From Natrononativus amylolyticus (GTDB lineage: Archaea; Halobacteriota; Halobacteria; Halobacteriales; Natrialbaceae), in contig NZ_CP101458.1 of the NCBI RefSeq assembly GCF_024362525.1, positions 1,116,001-1,180,000 of the forward strand: a stretch of DNA of 64,000 bases, read 5' to 3'. Within the stretch, counting starts at the first letter, position 1. Each line of letters starts with the position of its first letter. Positions 669-11,498 of the stretch are shown here, one piece after another. The notes beneath the pieces were generated by a model, which saw nothing but the letters and a program-made list of their open reading frames with translations, did no database searches and was not told where the DNA came from. Both the position numbers and the translations under genes were made by a program.

Positions 669-2534
669 ATGGAGTCAGGGGACCGAGAACGCGGTGGTGA
701 GATCGGCGACGGGACACGGGCGATGGCCGCCCTCGAGGCCGTCGTCGACCCCGTCGTCGCGGTGGCGGATGGAACGGTAACGTACGCCAACGACGCGGCC
801 CGCGAGGCGTTCTCCCTCTCGTCCGGCGACGAGGCCGCGGACGCACTCGGACCGCTCTGGGAGCGCCTACGCGAGGAGGTGGCCGAGACGACGGTCGGCA
901 CCGCACGCCGGGTCGAGCTCGCCGACGACCGGTTCGACGCACGCGTCCACCGGGCTGCGGACGGGGCGACGATCGCGTTCGCGACGCTCGAGGCGGACGT
1001 CTCGACGAGCGACCGCGCCGTCACGGCCCGGGCAGTCAACGAGGCCCCCGTCGGCGTGACGATCTCGGACCCCTCGCGAGAGGACAACCCGCTCGTCTAC
1101 ATCAACCGCGCCTACCGCGAGATCACCGGCTACAGCGCCGACGAGGTCGTCGGCCGGAACTGTCGGTTCCTCCAGGGACCCGACTCCGATCCGGAGGCGG
1201 TCGCGGCCATGCGCGAGGCGATCGCGGACGAGCGCCCCGTCACCGTCGAACTCAAAAACTACCGCAAGGACGGCACCGAGTTCTGGAACGAGGTCACGAT
1301 CGCCCCCGTTCGAAACGCCGACGGCGAGCGCACTCACTACGTCGGCTTCCAGAACGACATCAGCGCCCGCAAAGTCGCCGAACTCGAGGCCGAGCGCCGA
1401 CGGGAGGAACTCGAGTACCTCCTCGAGCGCGTCGAGGGCGTCCTGCAGGACGTCACGAGCGCGATCGCGGGCTCGACCGCTCGGGAGAACCTCGAGGCGA
1501 CCGTCTGCGAGCGGATCGCCGAAGAGAGCGCCTACGACGGCGTCTGGATCGGCGAGCGAAACCCCGTCACCGACGCCGTCGACGTCCGGGCGAGCGCCGG
1601 CGTCGACCCGGAGCCGCCGGCGCCGGACTCGGACCACCCGGCGGTGACGACGCTCGCGACCGGCGAACCGGCGATCGCCTCCGCCGACGGCGCCACGATC
1701 GCCGCGTTTCCGCTCGCCTACAGCGGGGTCGAGTACGGCGTGCTCACCGTCCGGATCGCCGGGGAACGCGGGGTGAACGACCGCGAGTCGACCATCCTCT
1801 CGGCGCTGGCTCGAGCCGTCGCCAGCGGGATCAACGCCCGCGAGACGAGCCGGATGCTCGCCACCGACGCGGTCGTCGCCGTCGACGTCGAGTTCACCGA
1901 CCGCTCGATCGCCCCGGTCGCGCTCACCGCGGGGACGGACAGTCGACTCGAGTACCGCCGGTCGGTTCACGCGACCGGCGACGAGACGACCTCGCTGTTC
2001 ACCGCGACCGGCGGAACCGCCGCCGAGCTAGCGGCCGCAGCCGCCGAACTCGAGGGGATCGATCTCGAGGTGCTCGTCGACCGCGGGGACGCCGACAGCC
2101 GCCTGCTCGAGGTGACGAGCGACGACGACCTCGTGTCATGGCTCTCCGAACGCGGCGTCGGAGTGCGATCGATCGAGGCCGAGGCCGGTCGCGCGCGCGC
2201 CACCCTCGAGGTTCCACGGTCCGCGAGCGTTCGGTCGGTCGTCGAGGCGATCGAAGACCGGTACGCGGGGACCGACGTCATCTCGTTCCGGCAGCGAACG
2301 CGCGAGGGCGCCGGAAACGCGCCCGAGGAAATCGCAGTCAGGCTCGAGGAGGAGCTGACCGAGCGGCAGTTCGCCGCGCTCCAGCTGGCGTACCTCGGCG
2401 GCTACTTCGAGTGGCCGCGACCGGCGACGGGGGAGGAGCTCGCCGGCTCGATGGGCGTCTCCCGGCCGACGTTCCACGAGCACCTGCGGGCGGCGGAGCT
2501 GAAACTCTGCAGGGCGTTCTTCGGCGACGAGTGA
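669..2534 (+). CDS. Bat-like regulator: PAS + LOV + GAF + bacterio-opsin activator HTH
   Basis: 621 residues. Order: an N-terminal PAS-like segment (about 20-110), a second PAS domain of LOV type (about 120-230), a GAF domain (about 260-390), the domain shared by bacterio-opsin activators (about 400-545) and a C-terminal HTH-10 (about 555-621, ending with GVSRPTFHEHLRAAE). The LOV segment carries GRNCRFLQG with the photoactive cysteine at residue 165, the NYRKDGTEFWN pair of flavin-binding Asn residues and VGFQNDIS with the Gln. In known LOV proteins these bind FMN and form a blue-light cysteinyl adduct. No signal peptide or membrane segment is seen, so it is a soluble regulator. Start 669 is preferred to 642 because the TATA box overlaps 642. 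No opsin or carotenoid gene is next to it, so its target is unknown. Confidence 0.85.
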   Translation: MESGDRERGGEIGDGTRAMAALEAVVDPVVAVADGTVTYANDAAREAFSLSSGDEAADALGPLWERLREEVAETTVGTARRVELADDRFDARVHRAADGATIAFATLEADVSTSDRAVTARAVNEAPVGVTISDPSREDNPLVYINRAYREITGYSADEVVGRNCRFLQGPDSDPEAVAAMREAIADERPVTVELKNYRKDGTEFWNEVTIAPVRNADGERTHYVGFQNDISARKVAELEAERRREELEYLLERVEGVLQDVTSAIAGSTARENLEATVCERIAEESAYDGVWIGERNPVTDAVDVRASAGVDPEPPAPDSDHPAVTTLATGEPAIASADGATIAAFPLAYSGVEYGVLTVRIAGERGVNDRESTILSALARAVASGINARETSRMLATDAVVAVDVEFTDRSIAPVALTAGTDSRLEYRRSVHATGDETTSLFTATGGTAAELAAAAAELEGIDLEVLVDRGDADSRLLEVTSDDDLVSWLSERGVGVRSIEAEAGRARATLEVPRSASVRSVVEAIEDRYAGTDVISFRQRTREGAGNAPEEIAVRLEEELTERQFAALQLAYLGGYFEWPRPATGEELAGSMGVSRPTFHEHLRAAELKLCRAFFGDE

Positions 2535-2599
2535 CCCTACGCTGGTAGGGATTTCGGCTAATCCCGGTGCGAGCCTGCCGTACATCGGGCACCGAGACC

Positions 2600-2767
2600 A
2601 TGACACAGACCCGACGGCGGACGCTCAAACTCGCCGGCGCGGCCGGTGCGCTCATCGCAACCGGCGGCGCGGCGATTCCAGCGTTCGCGGACGACCACAG
2701 CAACTTCGTCGTGACGACGGATCGGGCTTCGGACGGCGACGACGCCGACGCGGCGGAGCACGACTGA
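2600..2767 (+). CDS. very small Tat-type secreted protein
   Basis: 55 residues. It begins MTQTRRRTLKLAGAAGALIA, a twin-arginine signal with a short hydrophobic core and an AFA-D cleavage-like site near residue 31, leaving a mature acidic peptide of about 25 residues that ends in Asp/Glu/Ala. The upstream ATG at 2567 would spoil the signal, so 2600 is preferred. It lies 65 bases after the Bat-like regulator on the same strand and may be cotranscribed. I recognise no family. Tat export of so short a product is unusual; a frame-shifted remnant of a longer Tat protein is an alternative. Confidence 0.55.
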   Translation: MTQTRRRTLKLAGAAGALIATGGAAIPAFADDHSNFVVTTDRASDGDDADAAEHD

Positions 2768-2981
2768 ACTCCGGCGAGCATCGGTGGCCGGTCCCGTTCC
2801 GGAGCCGAAAACGCCGGACAACAGTCCATCGAACGCGCCAATCGGTAAAGCGGTGAGACCCCTCGTTCGCGGTCGAGCGATCCCGTCTACGGCCGTGACC
2901 GTCACGGCCGATTTAAGTCCACCCTTACCGCAGGTGTAGCCACCCCTTAGCCGACTGAACGGTCCGGGAGGGTCGTCCGCG

Positions 2982-2987
2982 TTTATG
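2982..2987 (+). promoter_or_regulatory. TATA box of the DUF1328 gene
   Basis: TTTATG 25 bases upstream of the ATG at 3012, as at 637-644. Again the box contains an in-frame ATG (2985) that is better read as promoter than as start codon. Confidence 0.55.
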
Positions 2988-3011
2988 CCACCGGCTGTCG
3001 TACGACCAAAT

Positions 3012-3200
3012 ATGCTCGAACTCGTAACCCCACTCCAGCTCGGCGGCGGTGGCTTCCTGTACTGGGCGATCATCTTCTTCATCCTCGCGATCGTCGCCGC
3101 AGCCGTCGGCGCGCGCGGCGTCGCCGGGATCACGATGGAGATCGCACGGATCTTCGTGCTGATCTTCATCGTGCTGGCGATCGTCGCCCTGCTACTGTAA
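3012..3200 (+). CDS. DUF1328 (UPF0391) small membrane protein
   Basis: 62 residues beginning MLELVTPLQLGGGGFLYWAI. It has two hydrophobic helices (about 15-33 and 44-62) joined by GARGVAGITMEIARI, the arrangement of the DUF1328/YtjA family of small membrane proteins found in bacteria and haloarchaea. The longer reading from 2985 would add nine residues but puts the start inside the TATA box. Function is unknown for the family; in bacteria members respond to envelope or osmotic stress. It stands alone between the Tat peptide and the aldehyde oxidoreductase. Confidence 0.8.
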   Translation: MLELVTPLQLGGGGFLYWAIIFFILAIVAAAVGARGVAGITMEIARIFVLIFIVLAIVALLL

Positions 3201-3350
3201 CGGCCATCCGCGGCTCGTTCGGTACCACCGAGCGGCGGCTTCGTCTCGCAGAGCCGGCTTCCGATTTCTGCGAGAGGTAACCGGATCCAGTTACGCCCCG
3301 TCGGGAACGACTAACAGGCTCCGGACCGAATGTAATAGTGAACATTTACC

Positions 3351-5270
3351 ATGACAGAACTGGGCGGATTCCAGGACAGCGTCGCTCGCGTCGACCTCTC
3401 CTCGGGGTCGGTCGACTACGAGTCGATCGACGACGAGGACGCAGAGAAGTACATCGGCGCGCGCGGTCTCGGGGTAAAGTACGTCTTCGAACAGGGTCCG
3501 GACGTCGATCCGCTCGGGCCGGACAACCTGCTCGCGTTCATGAACGGGCCGCTGTCGGGAACCCAGGTGACGATGTCCGGACGGATCGCCGTCTGCACCA
3601 AGTCGCCGCTGACCGGCACCGTCACCGACAGCCACCACGGCGGCTGGTCGGGCGCCCGGCTCAAGTGGGCCGGTTTCGACGGCCTGCTGTTCGAGGGACA
3701 GGCCGACGACCCCGTCTACGCCGTCGTCGAGGACGGCGAACTCGAGCTTCGGGACGCCTCCCACCTCTGGGGGAAGGGATTCCACGAGACCCGTGACGCG
3801 ATCGAGGAGGAGGTCGACGGCTCCTACGGCAAAAATCTGAGCGTCATGGGGATCGGTCCCGGCGGCGAGAACGAAGTGAAGTACGCCTGCATCATGAACG
3901 AGGACGACCGCGCCTCGGGCCGGGGCGGCACCGGCTGCGTGATGGGCAACAAGGGGCTGAAGGCGGTCGTCGTGAAATCGACGACGAAGATGCCCCAGCC
4001 CGCCGACCCCGAGACGTTCAAGGAGGGCCACCAGCAGGCGATGAAGGCCATCCAGGAGTCCGACGTCACCGCGCCCAACGAGGGCGGGCTCTCGGTGTAC
4101 GGCACGAACGTGCTGATGAACATCGGCGAGGAGATGGACGGCCTTCCCACGAAGAACGGGAAGTACACCTCCACCGGCAGCATGCGCGACGCCGAGGGCA
4201 CCGACATCGACGCAGAACGCGTCTCCGGGGAGAACGTCCGCGAGAACATCCTCGTCGACGAGCCCACCTGCCACTCCTGTCCGGTCGCCTGCAAGAAGGA
4301 AGTCGAGGTGCAGACGATGCACAAGGGCGAGGAGATGAACGTCCGCACCGAGTCCTACGAGTACGAGTCGGCCTACGCGCTCGGGCCCAACTCGGGACAC
4401 ACCGACCGCGACGCCATCGCACTGATGATCGAGCGCTGTAACGACATGGGCGTCGACACCATCGAGACTGGCAACATGATGGCGATGGCCATGGAGATGA
4501 GCGAGGAGGGCAAACTCGAGGAAGGCGACCTCGAGTGGGGCGACTACGAAACCATGATCGACATGATCGAGCGGATCGCCCGCCGCGAGGACGACCTCGC
4601 GGACCTGCTGGCGGAGGGGCCTCGCCGGGTCGCCGACCGGAAGGACGCCCACGACAACTCCCTGGCGGTGAAGGGCCAGACGATCGCCGCCTACGACCCC
4701 CGCTGTATGAAGGGGATGGGTATCGGCTACGCCACCTCGAACCGCGGCGCGTGTCACCTCCGGGGGTACACGCCCGCGGCCGAGATCCTCGGCATCCCCG
4801 AGAAAGTCGACCCCTACGAGTGGGAGGGCAAGGGCGAACTCACCGCCGCCTTCCAGGACCTCCACGCCATCTCCGACAGCTTCGACATCTGCAAGTTCAA
4901 CGCCTTCGCGGAGGGCATCGAGGAGTACGTCCTCCAGTACAACGGGATGACCGGCCTCGACGTCACCGAGGACGAACTCATGGAAGCCGGCGAGCGCGTC
5001 TACAACTTAGAGCGCTACTACAACAACCTCGCCGGCTTCGACGGCGCGGACGACTCCCTGCCCGCGCGGTTCCTCGAGGGCGGCATCCCCGGCCAGGGTG
5101 CGAGCGAGGGCGAGTACTGCGAACTCGAGGAGATGAAAGAAGAGTACTACGAGCACCGCGGCTGGGTCGACGGCGTGGTGCCGGACGAGAAACTCGAGGA
5201 GCTCGAGATCGATATCGGCCCCGGAACGGGCGTCTCCGCGGGCGATTCGGCGGCGCCTGCCGACGACTGA
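3351..5270 (+). CDS. aldehyde:ferredoxin oxidoreductase family protein
   Basis: 639 residues, normal for the AOR family of bis-pterin tungsten/molybdenum enzymes that oxidise aldehydes to carboxylic acids with ferredoxin. Visible features: the N-terminal beta-domain with GARGLGVKYVF and SGRIAVCTKSPLTG, the [4Fe-4S] ligands CHSCPVAC (Cys307, 310, 314) and a fourth Cys514 in SFDICKFNAF, matching the C-x2-C-x3-C plus distal Cys pattern of the Pyrococcus enzyme. No signal peptide, so cytoplasmic. The gene is monocistronic here; no ferredoxin lies beside it. A MoaD/SAMP1 gene, needed for pterin sulfuration, is about 10 kb away. Substrate cannot be read from the sequence. The C-terminus adds an acidic tail. 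Confidence 0.92.
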   Translation: MTELGGFQDSVARVDLSSGSVDYESIDDEDAEKYIGARGLGVKYVFEQGPDVDPLGPDNLLAFMNGPLSGTQVTMSGRIAVCTKSPLTGTVTDSHHGGWSGARLKWAGFDGLLFEGQADDPVYAVVEDGELELRDASHLWGKGFHETRDAIEEEVDGSYGKNLSVMGIGPGGENEVKYACIMNEDDRASGRGGTGCVMGNKGLKAVVVKSTTKMPQPADPETFKEGHQQAMKAIQESDVTAPNEGGLSVYGTNVLMNIGEEMDGLPTKNGKYTSTGSMRDAEGTDIDAERVSGENVRENILVDEPTCHSCPVACKKEVEVQTMHKGEEMNVRTESYEYESAYALGPNSGHTDRDAIALMIERCNDMGVDTIETGNMMAMAMEMSEEGKLEEGDLEWGDYETMIDMIERIARREDDLADLLAEGPRRVADRKDAHDNSLAVKGQTIAAYDPRCMKGMGIGYATSNRGACHLRGYTPAAEILGIPEKVDPYEWEGKGELTAAFQDLHAISDSFDICKFNAFAEGIEEYVLQYNGMTGLDVTEDELMEAGERVYNLERYYNNLAGFDGADDSLPARFLEGGIPGQGASEGEYCELEEMKEEYYEHRGWVDGVVPDEKLEELEIDIGPGTGVSAGDSAAPADD

Positions 5271-5341
5271 TCGACCGCGACCATCCGCGTCGCGTTTTTC
5301 GTTTTCGGTCGGCGAACCGGTGGGAAGAGTGGGCCGTGCGC

Positions 5342-6211
5342 TCAGTTCAGTTCCGCCTCGCGAAACCAAAGATAGCCGACGACCGTCGGGAGTAGTATCC
5401 ACGCGAACAGCACGGCGACGGCGAACCACGGCTCGGCGAAGACCGACACCGACTCCGGAGCGGCGACGGTCGATCCCTGCTGTGTCTCGAGTCCCTCTTC
5501 GCTCACGTCGAAGTGGACGTGTGGCGTTTCCGGAAGCAGGGCCGTGCTGGCCGCACTGTACGAGTCGGTCGGGTTGAGCACCGTCGCGAGCTGTACCCAC
5601 CCCGGCGGCTCGTCGCCGGGAACGTCGCCGGCGACGACGTAGTGAACGGCGGTCAGCAACCGCTCCCAGAGCACCACGCTGGTCACGTACCCGCCGACGA
5701 GGACGGCCATCGCTCGCGTCGACGTCGACGCGAACGCGGAGACGCCGACGGCGACCGCGACGAACGTCGTTCCAGCGAGCACCGTCAAAAGGGCGTACGT
5801 CAGTAGCGTGCCGATCGGGGGGACGCCGTACAGCGCCGTGATGAGCCCGCCGGCGACGAGAAAGCCGGTGGAGATCGCGATCGCGAGAACCGCACTTCGT
5901 CCCAGGAGCTTCCCGACGATCACGTTCCGTCGAGAGTGCGGGAGCGAGAGCAGGAACTTGATGCTTCCCCGTTCGCGCTCGCCGACGATCGACCGGTAGC
6001 CGAGCATGATCGCGATGATCGGCAACACGAGCGCCACGGCCGGTCCCTGGGTGAATGCCACGCCGACGTCTGCGCTCGGATCGTCGAACACGAACGCCGG
6101 AATCGACGCCGTAAGGGACATGAGGACGGTAAATATCGCGGTGGCGAACCACAGCGCCCGCGAACGGATCGCGTCCGCGAGGTCCTTCCTGGCGATGTCG
6201 ATCGCGGTCAT
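5342..6211 (-). CDS. ABC-2 type transporter permease (second transporter of the peptide-like operon)
   Basis: 289 residues with about six membrane helices; it starts MTAIDIARKDLADAIRSRALW, typical of the NosY/ABC-2 permeases whose N-terminal helix lies along the membrane. Residues about 170-255 form a long extracytoplasmic loop between helices. It is the last gene of the minus-strand operon and overlaps the ATPase gene by four bases (ATGA), so the two are translationally coupled and form one exporter. Known ABC-2 exporters move drugs, lipids, polysaccharides or peptides; substrate here is inferred only from context. Confidence 0.85.
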   Translation of the reverse strand: MTAIDIARKDLADAIRSRALWFATAIFTVLMSLTASIPAFVFDDPSADVGVAFTQGPAVALVLPIIAIMLGYRSIVGERERGSIKFLLSLPHSRRNVIVGKLLGRSAVLAIAISTGFLVAGGLITALYGVPPIGTLLTYALLTVLAGTTFVAVAVGVSAFASTSTRAMAVLVGGYVTSVVLWERLLTAVHYVVAGDVPGDEPPGWVQLATVLNPTDSYSAASTALLPETPHVHFDVSEEGLETQQGSTVAAPESVSVFAEPWFAVAVLFAWILLPTVVGYLWFREAELN

Positions 6212-7146
6212 GTCTCTTCCCGAGCGTACCGCTCGAACACCGTCTCGAGGGAGTCCTCTTCGGTCGAGAAATCACGCACCGTCGTGTGCGCTTCGACGCA
6301 GCGAAGCACCGCTACCTTGGCTGCGTGGTCGTCAATGGTGACGGCGACCCCCGTCCCGCCTTTCGAAGTGCCGTCGACCGATCCGTCGCGGACGCGAACG
6401 TCCGTGACGGACGGAACCGACTCGAGTTCCGGGCCCAGTGACGGCGGAACCTCGTCCGTTTCGATCGAGAGCCGCATCGCCGCCCCGAGGTCGTCGCGAA
6501 GCGAGTCGATCTCTCCGTCGACGACCAGTCGGCCGTCGACCATGATCCCGACGCGATCGCAGACCGCCTCAACCTGCTCAAGGACGTGACTCGAGAAGAA
6601 GACGGTCGTCCCGCGCTCGCACTCTGCGGCGATGATCTCCCTGAGTCGCCTGATCCCGTTCGGGTCCAGTCCGCTCGAGGGTTCGTCGAGGATGAGGAGA
6701 TCGGGGTCGCCGACAAGGGCGAGCGCCAGCTTCAGCCGCTGTGTCATCCCCGTCGAATACGCTCTAACGGGTCGATCGCCCGCCTCATCGAGGCCGACCC
6801 GGGCGAGGAGGGAGTCCGGATCGTCTCTCGATCCCATTGCACGGATGGCGAACTCAAGGTGGTTCCGCCCCGAGAGGCGCTCGTACAGCTCGCAGCTCTC
6901 TGGGAGCACGCCGACGCGCCGGCTGATGTCGACCGCGTCCTCCCTGGCGTCCAGTCCGAGCACGCGGGCGGTGCCGTCCGTCGGTCGAACGTAATCGAGA
7001 AGCAGTGCGATCGTCGTCGACTTTCCCGCACCGTTGGGTCCGAGGAAGCCGTACACCTCTGCCCTGTCGATGCTGAGATCGACGTCCGTGACGGCCGGAA
7101 CGGTGTCGTAGCGTTTCGTCAGTCCTGTTGTTTCAATTGCTGTCAT
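6208..7146 (-). CDS. ABC transporter ATP-binding protein (second transporter)
   Basis: 312 residues. Walker A GPNGAGKST (about 34-42), signature-like YSTGMTQRLKLALAL and Walker B LLILDEPSSGLDP, followed by the H-loop SSHV. The C-terminal 90 residues form an accessory segment as in the DrrA/NosF type. It is coupled to the permease at 5342-6211 by an ATGA overlap and follows the first transporter's permease by 59 bases without a new strong ribosome site. With its permease it would form a homodimeric or 2+2 exporter at the cytoplasmic membrane. Confidence 0.92.
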   Translation of the reverse strand: MTAIETTGLTKRYDTVPAVTDVDLSIDRAEVYGFLGPNGAGKSTTIALLLDYVRPTDGTARVLGLDAREDAVDISRRVGVLPESCELYERLSGRNHLEFAIRAMGSRDDPDSLLARVGLDEAGDRPVRAYSTGMTQRLKLALALVGDPDLLILDEPSSGLDPNGIRRLREIIAAECERGTTVFFSSHVLEQVEAVCDRVGIMVDGRLVVDGEIDSLRDDLGAAMRLSIETDEVPPSLGPELESVPSVTDVRVRDGSVDGTSKGGTGVAVTIDDHAAKVAVLRCVEAHTTVRDFSTEEDSLETVFERYAREET

Positions 7147-7205
7147 CGTTGTCGTATCGTGAATCGTATCTGTCAGCCGATACCCTCGAACGTGGTGTGT
7201 CGGAG

Positions 7206-7979
7206 TCAGTAGTGACCGACCACCCCTCGCCGCCGAGCGACGTTGACGAGTGCCCGAAGCCCGAGCAGTCCTCCTCCGACGTACACGACCGCTTTCACCA
7301 CGAGCAGTGCGAGCAGATCATGTGGTAGTTCGGTGAGTAGAACCCCGGAGTCCATCGAGAGCCGAAGGAGGTAGGAACCGGTCGAGAGCGGTGCAACGTG
7401 CAGCGAAGGATACGTCGCGACGGGAGCGGCGATGAACCCGACGAGGGCGAACTGTACGAGTCCGAGTACGCTCGCGATTCGCTTGTACAGCAACGCCAGC
7501 CCGCCCATAACGAACCCGACGCCGATCGCCGAGCACAGCGAGAGTAACCCGATCAACGCGACCGTCACTGGGTCGACGTGAAGCGAGGCACCGGTCACGA
7601 GCAGCATGAATCCGAGCACCAGACTCCCCCAGAGGAGCGTCTCGAGGAGAAAGACCACCGCCATCGCCGCCGCGATGACCTCGAAGCGCCGCGGCGCGAC
7701 GTACAGCTGCTCGAACGTCCCCCACTGGGTTTCGACGAAGATGGTCTGGGCGAGCGACGAGTACGCACCCACCGCCATCGTCCAGAGGAAGTAGCCGACG
7801 ACTACGGCGCCGAGGGTGCCACCGAGGTCCGGCCCGACGATCGACTGACCGCCGAGGAACAGGACGACGAACAGGAGCACGACCGTGACCAACTGTCCGA
7901 CCGTGTCGACGGGATACCGTTTCAGGAGGATCCAGCGTCGCACTCCCAGCGCCGCGATGAGTCCGGGAAAACCGGTCAT
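7206..7979 (-). CDS. ABC-2 type transporter permease (first transporter)
   Basis: 257 residues with six predicted membrane helices. The segment PVDTVGQLVTVVLLFVVLFL and the later TFEQLYVAPRR match ABC-2 permeases of the drug/polysaccharide export kind. The start ATG at 7979 overlaps the stop of the ATPase gene upstream (ATGA), and a perfect GGAGGTGA Shine-Dalgarno lies inside the end of that gene, four bases before the start. It therefore pairs with the ATPase at 7976-9010. No substrate is visible. Confidence 0.85.
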   Translation of the reverse strand: MTGFPGLIAALGVRRWILLKRYPVDTVGQLVTVVLLFVVLFLGGQSIVGPDLGGTLGAVVVGYFLWTMAVGAYSSLAQTIFVETQWGTFEQLYVAPRRFEVIAAAMAVVFLLETLLWGSLVLGFMLLVTGASLHVDPVTVALIGLLSLCSAIGVGFVMGGLALLYKRIASVLGLVQFALVGFIAAPVATYPSLHVAPLSTGSYLLRLSMDSGVLLTELPHDLLALLVVKAVVYVGGGLLGLRALVNVARRRGVVGHY

Positions 7980-9010
7980 CCGCTCACCTCCGGAACGGGC
8001 CGATCGTCGGGGAGCGACGCCTGCTCCCGTCCCGTCGTGATCGACGAGAAGATCTCGCCCAGCGCCGGTTCGACGCGCTCGAGCGACCGAAGCGAGTGTC
8101 CGCGTTGCCGGAGTTCGTCGACGAGCGCGTACACCTCACCGGGCTCCGAGAGGAGGACGTCGAACCGGGTACGCTCGTCCACAAGCGCGACCTCACCCAC
8201 GTCAAACGACTGCGCGAGGGTCGCGATCGAATCCGTAGCGACCGCCGACTCGAGCGTCACCGAGTACGTTCGTGTCGCGAATGCCGTCTTCAGCGCGTCG
8301 ACCGACTCGTCGGCGACGATTGCCCCGTCGTCGACGACCACGACCCTATCACAGACTCGTTCGACGACGCCCATGTCGTGACTGCTGAGGAGGACTGTCC
8401 GCCCCTCCTGTTCGGTCAGCCTGACGAGTTCGTCCAGGAGCGCACGCTGGGATTCGAAATCCAGCCCGAGCGTCGGCTCGTCGAGCAACAGGATCGGCGT
8501 GTCACGGACGAAGGCGCAGGCGAGGGCACACCGCTGTTTCATACCCCGCGAGAGTTCTGTGACGGTCGTATCCGCGACCGCTTCGATTCCGGCTGCATCG
8601 ATCGCCCGTCGAACTCGGTCGGGCCGGCTCCGGCGGGGAACGCCGTGCAGTTGCGCGAAAAACGAGACGTTCTCGCGGGGGGTGAGACGCCAGTACACGT
8701 TCCGGGCACCCTCGAACACGGCGGCGACAGCGCGGTGTGCTGCCGAGGGATGCTCGCAAACGTCGACGCCGTCGACGCGAACTGTTCCGGCCGAGGGCGT
8801 GACGAGACCGAGAACGGACTTCATGAGCGTCGTCTTGCCCGCTCCGTTCGTGCCGAGGAGCCCAGTGATCGATCCCGGCTGGACGGTCACCGAGACGTTC
8901 GACAGCGCTTCGACCGACGTGCTCCCGGCCCCGTAGCATTTGGTCAGGCCGACGACCTCGACGGTGCCACCGCCGGAGCCGGGGGCGCACGCGGTATGCC
9001 GTGACGTCAC
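7976..9010 (-). CDS. ABC transporter ATP-binding protein (first transporter)
   Basis: 344 residues from a GTG start at 9010. Walker A GTNGAGKTT, Q-loop region VFEGARNVYWRLT, signature-like LSRGMKQRCALACAF, Walker B ILLLDEPTLGLD and switch SSHD are present. The signature has SRGMK in place of LSGGQ, which is common in ABC-2 ATPases. The start is fixed by a GTGA overlap with the stop of the CPBP protease gene (9007-9010). A longer in-frame reading to 9490 would run through the protease gene and is rejected. Residues beyond about 225 form a C-terminal regulatory-like domain. Confidence 0.9.
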   Translation of the reverse strand: MTSRHTACAPGSGGGTVEVVGLTKCYGAGSTSVEALSNVSVTVQPGSITGLLGTNGAGKTTLMKSVLGLVTPSAGTVRVDGVDVCEHPSAAHRAVAAVFEGARNVYWRLTPRENVSFFAQLHGVPRRSRPDRVRRAIDAAGIEAVADTTVTELSRGMKQRCALACAFVRDTPILLLDEPTLGLDFESQRALLDELVRLTEQEGRTVLLSSHDMGVVERVCDRVVVVDDGAIVADESVDALKTAFATRTYSVTLESAVATDSIATLAQSFDVGEVALVDERTRFDVLLSEPGEVYALVDELRQRGHSLRSLERVEPALGEIFSSITTGREQASLPDDRPVPEVSG

Positions 9011-9876
9011 GCCGACCACCGCCGGTAGTAGCCGAGCACGCCGGCCGTGCCGACTGCAAGAACCCCCATCGTGAACGGCGACTCCGTGACGCCGGAGAAC
9101 TCGCCGCCGAACAGCACTGGCTGTGCGGCCGGGACGTACGTGAGTAGCGTGTCGCGGGCGGCCTCGTCGGCACGGAACGCCACCAGTTCGGGACTGAGCA
9201 GCGTGTTCCACGCTGCGTGGATTCCGACGGCGTTCCAGACGTTGCCCGTGTAGTAGGTCACGAGCGCGAACAGCACGCCCGCGAGCGTCGCCGTTCCCAC
9301 GTACAGTACCGTCCCCACGGTTTCGGAGGCGTGCCCATTGTGGAGGAGGCCGAAGACCACCGACGTGACGACGATCGCGGTCGGCCACCCCCACTGGTGG
9401 CCGAGAATCGAGAGCAGGTAGCCCCGCAACAGCAGTTCCTCGAGAATCGCCGCCCACGTGGCGAGCGCGAGCGCGACCGTGACCGCCCAAAGAACTCGCG
9501 TCCCCCCACCGAACTCGAGCGTGAGCGTGCCGTCGACGACCGCCAGCGGAACGGCGAGAACGAACACGGCGAGACTAACCCCGAACAGAAGCCACCGAAG
9601 CGTCGCTGCGGTGGGGCGTCGTATGAACACGTCCGAGAGGGGAAGTCCGAGTATCCGCCCAAGACCGACGAAGACGCACAACGAGAGCGCGATCCCGATG
9701 AGCGCGGTGTCGATCGGACCCGAAAGCGAGTGTATCGCGGACAGCCGGCTCGCGATCGTCCCCGGGAGGACGACGAGCGGAAGGACCAGAAAGAGCAGCG
9801 CCCCACAGAGGGTCGTCGCCTTCCAGCGCTCCATCGTCGAGAGTCGTTCGTTGGTCGGTAGGTGTTTCGTATTCAT
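9007..9876 (-). CDS. CPBP/CAAX-type intramembrane metalloprotease
   Basis: About 289 residues with eight hydrophobic helices. The CPBP (Abi) motifs are all visible: EELLLRG (EExxxR), FGLLHNGH (FxxxH) and HAAWN (HxxxN), so it is likely an active glutamic-type intramembrane protease. In bacteria, CPBP genes next to bacteriocin operons often give immunity or help processing. Here it sits directly after a predicted peptide gene and is coupled to two ABC transporters. The start is uncertain: GTG 9918, ATG 9891, ATG 9876 and ATG 9834 are in frame; codons before 9876 look non-coding (TTA, TTT, ATT), so 9876 is preferred. Confidence 0.85.
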   Translation of the reverse strand: MNTKHLPTNERLSTMERWKATTLCGALLFLVLPLVVLPGTIASRLSAIHSLSGPIDTALIGIALSLCVFVGLGRILGLPLSDVFIRRPTAATLRWLLFGVSLAVFVLAVPLAVVDGTLTLEFGGGTRVLWAVTVALALATWAAILEELLLRGYLLSILGHQWGWPTAIVVTSVVFGLLHNGHASETVGTVLYVGTATLAGVLFALVTYYTGNVWNAVGIHAAWNTLLSPELVAFRADEAARDTLLTYVPAAQPVLFGGEFSGVTESPFTMGVLAVGTAGVLGYYRRWSA

Positions 9877-9928
9877 GGTAAATAATGTCATAATTCCGTC
9901 ACGGTTTCGGACTTCCACAGGATCGTTC

Positions 9929-9960
9929 CGAACGGCGGGCAGATGGCTGCCCCCCGTTCG
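9929..9960 (-). promoter_or_regulatory. strong RNA hairpin between the peptide gene and the CPBP gene
   Basis: On the minus strand, CGAACGG-G-GGGCAG-CCAT-CTGCCC-G-CCGTTCG folds into 13 perfect pairs with one G-G mismatch and a four-base loop. It lies 26 bases after the stop of the peptide gene. In bacterial peptide operons such a hairpin commonly acts as an attenuator or RNA stabiliser so that the precursor peptide is made in excess over the downstream genes. No T-run follows, so full termination is not expected. Confidence 0.65.
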
Positions 9961-9986
9961 ATCCGTACGTCACTCGAGTCGACTCC

Positions 9987-10064
9987 TTACAGTCGGCTCC
10001 CGCTGTACGCGAACGACCCGCTGAATCGGTCGCCGTCGTACGACACACTGAAACTGAAGATCAC
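9987..10064 (-). CDS. predicted 25-residue peptide, possible precursor of an exported peptide
   Basis: GTG start at 10064, TAA stop at 9987. The peptide begins MIFSFSVSYDGD and ends AYSGSRL. It is rich in Ser, Phe, Tyr and Gly, with FSFSVSYDG and FSGSFAYSG forming two similar halves and no cysteine. Support: a perfect 8-base Shine-Dalgarno (GGAGGTGA, 10070-10077) five bases before the GTG, a TATA box giving a leader of about 16 bases, a strong hairpin after the stop, and a downstream operon of CPBP protease plus two ABC exporters. No long leader sequence is visible, so it would be a leaderless or minimally processed product. It could instead be a regulatory leader peptide. No homologue is known to me. 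Confidence 0.5.
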   Translation of the reverse strand: MIFSFSVSYDGDRFSGSFAYSGSRL

Positions 10065-10069
10065 GTTTC

Positions 10070-10108
10070 TCACCTCCAACTGGTCGTGGGTTCGTCATCG
10101 CATATAAA
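10070..10108 (-). promoter_or_regulatory. promoter and perfect Shine-Dalgarno of the peptide operon
   Basis: Minus strand: TTTATAT at 10102-10108, predicted transcription start near 10080, then GGAGGTGA at 10070-10077, which pairs over eight bases with the archaeal 16S 3' end. Most first genes here are leaderless, so a short leader with a full Shine-Dalgarno marks this as a gene adapted for strong translation. Confidence 0.6.
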
Positions 10109-10211: not shown

Positions 10212-11498
10212 TCACTCGTCGTAGTCGACGACTGGCCAGCCCTCGAGTCGGTCCGTGATCGCGTCGGTGACCGGATCCAGGTAGGGCAGTCCCCACGCGG
10301 CCACGATCGACGCGCCGATGGTGTTGAAGACGACGTCGGTCATCGTGTCGTCGAGGCCGTGCTGGGTGAGCGGCATCGTCAGGTCGTAGGCGGCCGCCAG
10401 CACGTCGAAGCCGAACTCGCTGATCTCCCAGACGACGCCGAAGGCGGCGACGAAGACGACGACGAACAAGGGGACCAGTCCCGGTGGAAGGTGGACGTCG
10501 TCGCGGTGCTCGTCCAGGGTGCGGATGAACGCATAACCGATCGCGCCGACCAGCGTCGCCGACAGCGGGTGGGTCAGGTTGTGCCACCAGAACGTGCGCT
10601 CGTAGAAGTACGCCGAGCCGAGCGCGTGCAGGAAGACGACCGTCGTCACCCAGAGGACGAGTCCCGCGTCGAACGGGAGGTCGTACCGCCGCCGGAGTAG
10701 CGTGGGAACGAACGTGATCGCGAGCATCAGCCCCGCGTTGGTGATCAGTTCCGACTGCGGGGCGAGGACGCCGTAGGCGAGCATCCCGAAGAGGCCGAGG
10801 CGCATCGCCCAGACGAGTCCGCGCTGGACGACCGTCGGGAGCGGGAGGTGCTCCTCGAGCGTCGGGTGGTCGTCGGCGCCCGTCTTCTCGGCGAAGCGAT
10901 CCTGGTCGATACCGTCGACGGGCGCCGAGACGAGTTCCTCGCCGGGAAACCCGCGGTAGTAGCGGTCGAAGACGACGCCGGCGAGCAATCCGGTGCCGGT
11001 CGCGACGATAAACAGCCACATCACCCAGTCGTTGCTCGGAACGATGGCCGTGCCGGCGACGGAGTCGAACAGCCAGGTGAGCGTCGCCCACAGCGCGGCG
11101 ATCGTCGCCGCGAGCATCGTGACGAAGCCGACGGCGAGCCACCGCTCGAGGCGGATCTCCGTGAGGGCGTTGGCCTCGAGCGTCAGCGCGAGCGCGAGCG
11201 GGGCCGCGCCGGCGTACAGTATCAGCTGCCGGGCGAACGAATCGGGGACGAGAACGGCGGCGACGAGCGGGACGACCGCGAGCACCGGGATCTCCCAGGG
11301 GAGTGCGGCGCGCCGCGAGTCGAGGACGATCGCCGGGAGCAGCGTGACGGCGGCGACGCTCGCCGCGAACACCGCCTCGTGGAGCGTGCCGGTGAGTATC
11401 GCGCCCCCGCCGACGAGCAACGCGACGGCGACAGCCGTCCAGGAGAGGTACGCGTTCGATCGTTCGCCGTGGAGTCGTCTGGTAGGGGTGCGGGCCAT
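10212..11498 (-). CDS. multi-pass membrane protein, DUF2238-like C-terminal region
   Basis: 428 residues with about ten to twelve hydrophobic helices. The C-terminal third contains FWWHNLTHPLSATLVG, VWEISEFGFD and LDDTMTDVVFNTIGA. The acidic and Asn residues inside these helices recall the DUF2238/YjdF family of membrane proteins of unknown function. A 55-residue soluble loop (about 205-260) carries charged residues. It faces the hydrolase at 11646 head to head. I cannot assign a substrate or reaction. The start at 11498 gives a short Arg-rich cytoplasmic N-terminus, consistent with positive-inside topology. Confidence 0.65.
   Translation of the reverse strand: MARTPTRRLHGERSNAYLSWTAVAVALLVGGGAILTGTLHEAVFAASVAAVTLLPAIVLDSRRAALPWEIPVLAVVPLVAAVLVPDSFARQLILYAGAAPLALALTLEANALTEIRLERWLAVGFVTMLAATIAALWATLTWLFDSVAGTAIVPSNDWVMWLFIVATGTGLLAGVVFDRYYRGFPGEELVSAPVDGIDQDRFAEKTGADDHPTLEEHLPLPTVVQRGLVWAMRLGLFGMLAYGVLAPQSELITNAGLMLAITFVPTLLRRRYDLPFDAGLVLWVTTVVFLHALGSAYFYERTFWWHNLTHPLSATLVGAIGYAFIRTLDEHRDDVHLPPGLVPLFVVVFVAAFGVVWEISEFGFDVLAAAYDLTMPLTQHGLDDTMTDVVFNTIGASIVAAWGLPYLDPVTDAITDRLEGWPVVDYDE

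Follow-up and report, generated by a model that had tools for sequence, protein, structure and literature searches.

Several described systems come close to the locus reported here. In the SHP/PptAB system of Streptococcus a very short, unmodified ribosomal peptide is paired with an ABC ATPase/permease exporter, PptAB, which exports short pheromones (PMC5167397), and a membrane protease, Eep, is implicated in maturation (PMC5167397, PMC7564271). In the sil locus of Streptococcus anginosus the CAAX protease SilX has been implicated in the processing and export of the signal peptide, and the gene for this CPBP-type protease lies near those for a small peptide and its transport (PMC9298176). Leaderless bacteriocins are likewise small peptides accompanied by ABC genes for export or immunity (PMC6131525), and the haloarchaea themselves secrete small peptides, the halocins and the archaeal lanthipeptides (PMC4609331, PMC10105419).

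The locus lies on the minus strand of Natrononativus amylolyticus NZ_CP101458.1, within positions 1,116,001–1,180,000. We refer to this whole stretch of 64,000 nucleotides as the window and number all features from its first base. As in SHP/PptAB, there is a very short ribosomal peptide, a membrane protease and an ABC ATPase/permease pair, but the protease is of the CPBP type, the protease and exporter genes stand within the operon, the host is an archaeon, no Rgg/RRNPP receptor is adjacent and the likeness is one without demonstrated sequence similarity. In contrast to sil, the locus has no dedicated signal-transduction genes, its transporters are plain ABC-2 pairs and its peptide is unrelated. 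Leaderless bacteriocins are cationic, mostly of 30–70 residues and helical, whereas the peptide described here is acidic to neutral, has 23–25 residues and is strand-prone. Microhalocins are of at least 3.6 kDa and lanthipeptides need LanM; here the peptide mass is 2.65–2.8 kDa, with neither cysteine nor a LanM. No like system was found in the literature that we searched, the coverage of which was incomplete.

On direct reading, the gene order, coordinates, TATA box, overlaps and 59-base gap given by an earlier, sequence-only reading proved exact. A TATA-like box, TTTATA (TTTATATG, starting at 10108; 10103–10108), precedes a Shine–Dalgarno sequence, GGAGGTGA (10070–10077), which is placed 5 nt ahead of the start codon of a 25-codon peptide gene (9987–10064; GTG start, MIFSFSVSYDGDRFSGSFAYSGSRL, TAA ending at 9987). 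The peptide gene, which was read directly and is supported by homologues, is followed by a G+C-rich hairpin (9929–9960) and then by the gene for a CPBP, or Rce1-like, intramembrane protease (9007–9876). ATPase 1 (7976–9010) begins with a GTG that overlaps the protease stop codon (GTGA) and overlaps in turn with permease 1 (7206–7979; ATGA). After a gap of 59 nt come ATPase 2 (6208–7146) and permease 2 (5342–6211), again joined by an ATGA overlap. Just upstream of the operon, at 10212–11498 on the same strand, is a gene for a 428-residue multi-spanning membrane protein that has no Pfam family and is not conserved beside the operon in relatives.

Two of the elements singled out earlier are present and carry less weight than had been given to them. 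The 8-base Shine–Dalgarno sequence recurs, with identical spacing, ahead of the peptide gene of a metagenome-assembled genome (MAG) from a soda lake (locus L020), but the 64 kb window contains 8 copies of GGAGGTGA, and by itself the motif therefore proves little. The strong hairpin is real in the window but lacks a U-run, and Natronococcus has no clear equivalent of it. In that genus TTTATA or TTCATA stands about 43 nt ahead of the ATG in 8/8 peptide-carrying loci. In these eight loci (L012–L019) an inverted repeat, GGGTGACATACCC, or GGTTGGGTGCTACCAACCC and variants, ends exactly at the peptide ATG (for example L013:5793–5811), near the expected transcription start; it is a candidate 5′ hairpin or operator. 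The peptide genes of the window and of the MAG have a Shine–Dalgarno sequence in its place.

Homologous loci were found by way of the CPBP protein. A search of the genome contigs with the single CPBP sequence gave no match and an alignment-based search gave 6 loci. Strong CPBP relatives (about 37–42% identity) occur in 8 genomes, all of a single genus, and in a MAG from another family, with a weaker relative in genome G184. Directly upstream of the CPBP gene in all nine of the strong loci is an ORF of 23–25 codons, and the encoded peptides share the core Y-[D/N]-G-D-x-x-S. Peptide homologues are thus present in nine other loci, eight from Natronococcus and one from a MAG of another family, Halobacteriales archaeon CSSed162cmA_432R1. 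The named carriers include Natronococcus pandeyae, N. jeotgali, N. amylolyticus, strain A-GB1 and MAG CSSed10_265. Loci L052–L057 come from Natronococcus species and from MAGs whose names suggest an origin in soda-lake sediment, a possible hint that the function is tied to alkaline brine.

Two subtypes can be distinguished. The peptides of the window and of the soda-lake MAG follow the pattern SFSVxY[DN]GDRFSGSxxYxGSR[LF], and those of Natronococcus follow MLQYxEAxYDGDxxSxxxSxxIGxF, MLQYIEAGYDGDTLSGSLSVEIGSF being the commonest form. The MAG peptide, MSFSVEYNGDRFSGSISYEGSRF, is identical to that of the window at 17 of 23 residues, with proteases that are only about 35% identical.

The ORF is shown by its pattern of substitution to be a protein-coding gene under purifying selection. 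For the eight Natronococcus sequences pN/pS is 0.20 in the peptide frame, a value reached by none of 300 column shuffles (mean 0.92), and is 1.28 and 4.15 in the two other frames. Codon position 3 accounts for 17 of the 29 variable columns, and TAG, TGA and TAA are all in use at a single end point. The comparison of the window with the MAG gives a pN/pS of 0.22, with 12 of the differences falling at codon position 3, 6 at position 1 and 2 at position 2. Mean nucleotide identity within Natronococcus is 81% over the peptide ORF, 54% over the gap to CPBP, 65% over the 60 nt upstream and 37% over the 60 nt preceding those. It is this conservation of the frame in relatives that places the ORF beyond chance. 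The sequence-only reading had staked its proposal of an unrecognised peptide operon on a conserved frame with synonymous bias in relatives; both are found, at the same place relative to the CPBP gene, and the proposal is strongly supported.

The family is narrowly distributed. When 392 Halobacteriales genomes were searched with a profile of the peptide, matches with E ≤ 1.5e-11 came from only eight, the same eight that carry a strong CPBP; the next matches were at 1e-4 or weaker and were partial. We attribute the weak matches outside the CPBP genomes to chance, those inspected lying in or over other frames; one of these, in L035, overlies the start of a replication-factor-C-like gene. A phylum-wide sample yielded no further peptide, viral contigs contained neither a CPBP relative nor the peptide pattern, and plasmids gave no match. 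Searches of Pfam and NCBIfam with the peptide gave no match, and those of the PDB gave only chance-level similarities.

In every carrier found, the peptide gene stands directly upstream of one CPBP clade and the ABC-2 pair formed by ATPase 2 and permease 2. The loci differ in what else is kept. All five protein genes are retained in Natronococcus, with ATPase 1 and permease 1 divergent from the peptide–CPBP–ATPase 2–permease 2 set. Only three of the five are present in the MAG and in G184, namely CPBP, ATPase 2 and permease 2, which, together with the peptide, we therefore take as the core. The G184 set (L021; CPBP at 6926–7804 on the minus strand, followed by the ABC genes) is homologous to this core, and no recognisable peptide gene was found near it; the machinery there may serve another purpose or an older one, or the peptide may have diverged. 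Most Natronococcus loci are syntenic, which indicates vertical descent. They are flanked on one side by what we take to be a prephenate-dehydratase-like gene and on the other by presumed peroxiredoxin-, Hsp20- and aminoacyl-tRNA-synthetase-like genes.

The peptide lies just upstream of a homologous CPBP in eight of the nine Natronococcus genomes examined, and presence throughout the genus is ruled out by the ninth, G129. This genome is 99% complete and has neither CPBP nor peptide. What is left at the syntenic place is the final 168 residues of permease 2 (65% identical); the peptide, CPBP, both ATPases and permease 1 are all absent. Other genes and then a short CRISPR-like repeat array occupy the position of the module (L085, about 1,050 to 5,770 of the reverse complement). 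The genes of the module were lost as a unit, and the module is dispensable. A single event took away all of it, so that the loss speaks weakly, not strongly, for joint function.

The earlier assignment of a protease and two ABC exporters holds. The protease is a multi-helix membrane protein that matches PF02517 (2.1e-17) and has the features of a CPBP/Rce1 protein. The Rce1 motifs EExxxR, FxxxH and HxxxN (Glu146, Glu147 and Arg151; Phe175 and His179; His220 and Asn224) are invariant in all 11 CPBP sequences, and the nearest structures to its model (pLDDT 61) are SpdC and the archaeal MmRce1, with weak E-values. It is probably an active protease. Both ATPases match PF00005 (ABC_tran) and permease 2 matches PF12679 (ABC2_membrane_2; 2.6e-50). 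ATPase 2 also resembles lantibiotic-protection ATPases (TIGR03740, 7.7e-51, below the cutoff of that model). Permease 1 has no Pfam match, but the best matches to its AlphaFold2 model (nine sequences, pLDDT 70) are the ABC-2 permeases Wzm, KpsM and TarG, with modest E-values, so that judged by this predicted fold both exporters look complete. ATPase 1 and permease 1 (7206–9010, minus strand) are members of an exporter family that is very widespread in haloarchaea, and the permease of this family has no Pfam model. The permease 1 family occurs in 239 of 392 genomes and is not specific to the peptide system; the second exporter is therefore drawn from common stock. One other locus of this family, L066, showed no CPBP. 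Members of such broad ABC families could transport cargo other than the peptide.

The suggestion of a RiPP was not borne out. No modification enzyme (LanM, YcaO, radical SAM, ATP-grasp and the like) is encoded in or beside the operon, and no modification enzyme or regulator is conserved in the neighbourhood of the cluster, which itself contains neither a receptor nor a regulator gene. The peptide has no cysteine and leaves no room for a leader and core, since the whole of it is 23–25 residues long and is conserved over its length. The conserved genes are those for the peptide, CPBP and ABC proteins only, and we dropped the RiPP reading for want of any modification enzyme.

The peptides have masses of 2.65–2.8 kDa and net charges of 0 to −4. 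The two similar halves noted previously are a weak feature, and alternating polar and apolar residues around the Asp-Gly pair describe the peptide better. The C-terminal half alternates in this way throughout (moment at 180° of 0.47–0.62; shuffle p of 0.02–0.14). Alternation in the N-terminal half is found mainly in the window/MAG type, and a consistently amphipathic strand is confined to the C-terminal half. An Asp/Asn-Gly pair is a classical tight-turn former. A hairpin or an amphipathic strand is plausible from the residue pattern.

We consider it somewhat probable that a short ribosomal peptide, left unmodified, is produced by the locus and exported; its export and function are what we infer. 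The peptide would be made in the cytosol and engaged or trimmed at the membrane by the CPBP protease. By analogy with SHP, PptAB and their membrane protease, the ABC-2 pair would then export it, with the second exporter adding export or protection. Outside the cell, where the peptide would act, the Asp/Asn-Gly turn and the amphipathic C-terminal strand may constitute the active form. The breadth of the ABC families, the absence of a receptor or regulator gene from the cluster, the L021 set without a peptide and the restriction of consistent amphipathicity to the C-terminal half weigh against this reading.

A cell–cell signal is our first choice of function and a halocin-like antimicrobial a less likely second. 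The peptide might be toxic to other haloarchaea, with CPBP and one ABC exporter conferring self-immunity and the other exporter secreting the peptide, an explanation that we regard as rather unlikely. The resemblance of ATPase 2 to lantibiotic-protection ATPases and the amphipathic C-terminal half of the peptide favour it. CPBP proteins and ABC transporters are, moreover, common beside bacteriocin genes. This proximity has been discussed (PMC9298176), and to that extent the bacteriocin-like label used earlier fits. The peptide itself fits less well, being acidic to neutral and of 23–25 residues, whereas leaderless bacteriocins are cationic (PMC6131525). It is also conserved at one syntenic place in nearly all Natronococcus, and bacteriocins are often patchy or fast-evolving. 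We prefer a signal to a toxin on account of the acidic to neutral character of the peptide, its slow evolution and its presence in eight of nine genomes of the genus. The signal interpretation is weakest in that no receptor is linked to the locus.

Two further explanations would keep the peptide inside the cell. The arrangement in the window, a small ORF followed by a strong hairpin and ABC genes, together with a strong hairpin in the corresponding gap of L020, could represent an attenuator in which translation of a leader peptide controls the hairpin and thereby expression of the downstream exporters, the peptide acting only in the ribosome. This is very improbable: residues are conserved to the end of the peptide with synonymous sites free, there is no run of codons for one amino acid, and the window hairpin is without a U-run or an evident counterpart in Natronococcus. 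It is also quite unlikely that the peptide is an intracellular microprotein that regulates CPBP or an ABC exporter of other cargo. The strict linkage to CPBP and ATPase 2/permease 2 speaks for such a regulator, and haloarchaea have many very small functional proteins (PMC10716476), but nothing else supports it. The CPBP–ABC set of L021, which is without the peptide, shows that the machinery does not always need a peptide and indicates that this machinery may have another role.

On the literature that we searched, we rate the locus as a known kind of system, a peptide maturation/export operon, with a new peptide family, in Archaea. We tentatively put forward a new haloarchaeal family of genetically encoded peptide signals, in which a dedicated CPBP protease would mature, and a dedicated ABC-2 pair would export, an unmodified peptide of 23–25 residues with a Tyr-Asp/Asn-Gly-Asp core. 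Such a locus could be the first archaeal export operon to be defined for a peptide pheromone, or for what would be the smallest halocin. To our knowledge, almost no genetically defined signal exists for archaeal cell–cell signalling. The signal of Haloferax volcanii is a non-peptide small molecule (PMC12240190). Natronococcus occultus has been reported to produce an unidentified quorum-sensing activity, detected with AHL reporters (Paggi, 2003, cited in PMC4609331); any connection of that activity with the peptide is no more than a lead. Because the peptide gene is conserved and accompanied by a protease and an exporter of its own, it offers a concrete target for deletion and a peptide for synthesis, and archaeal peptide families this small can be found from operon position and frame conservation.
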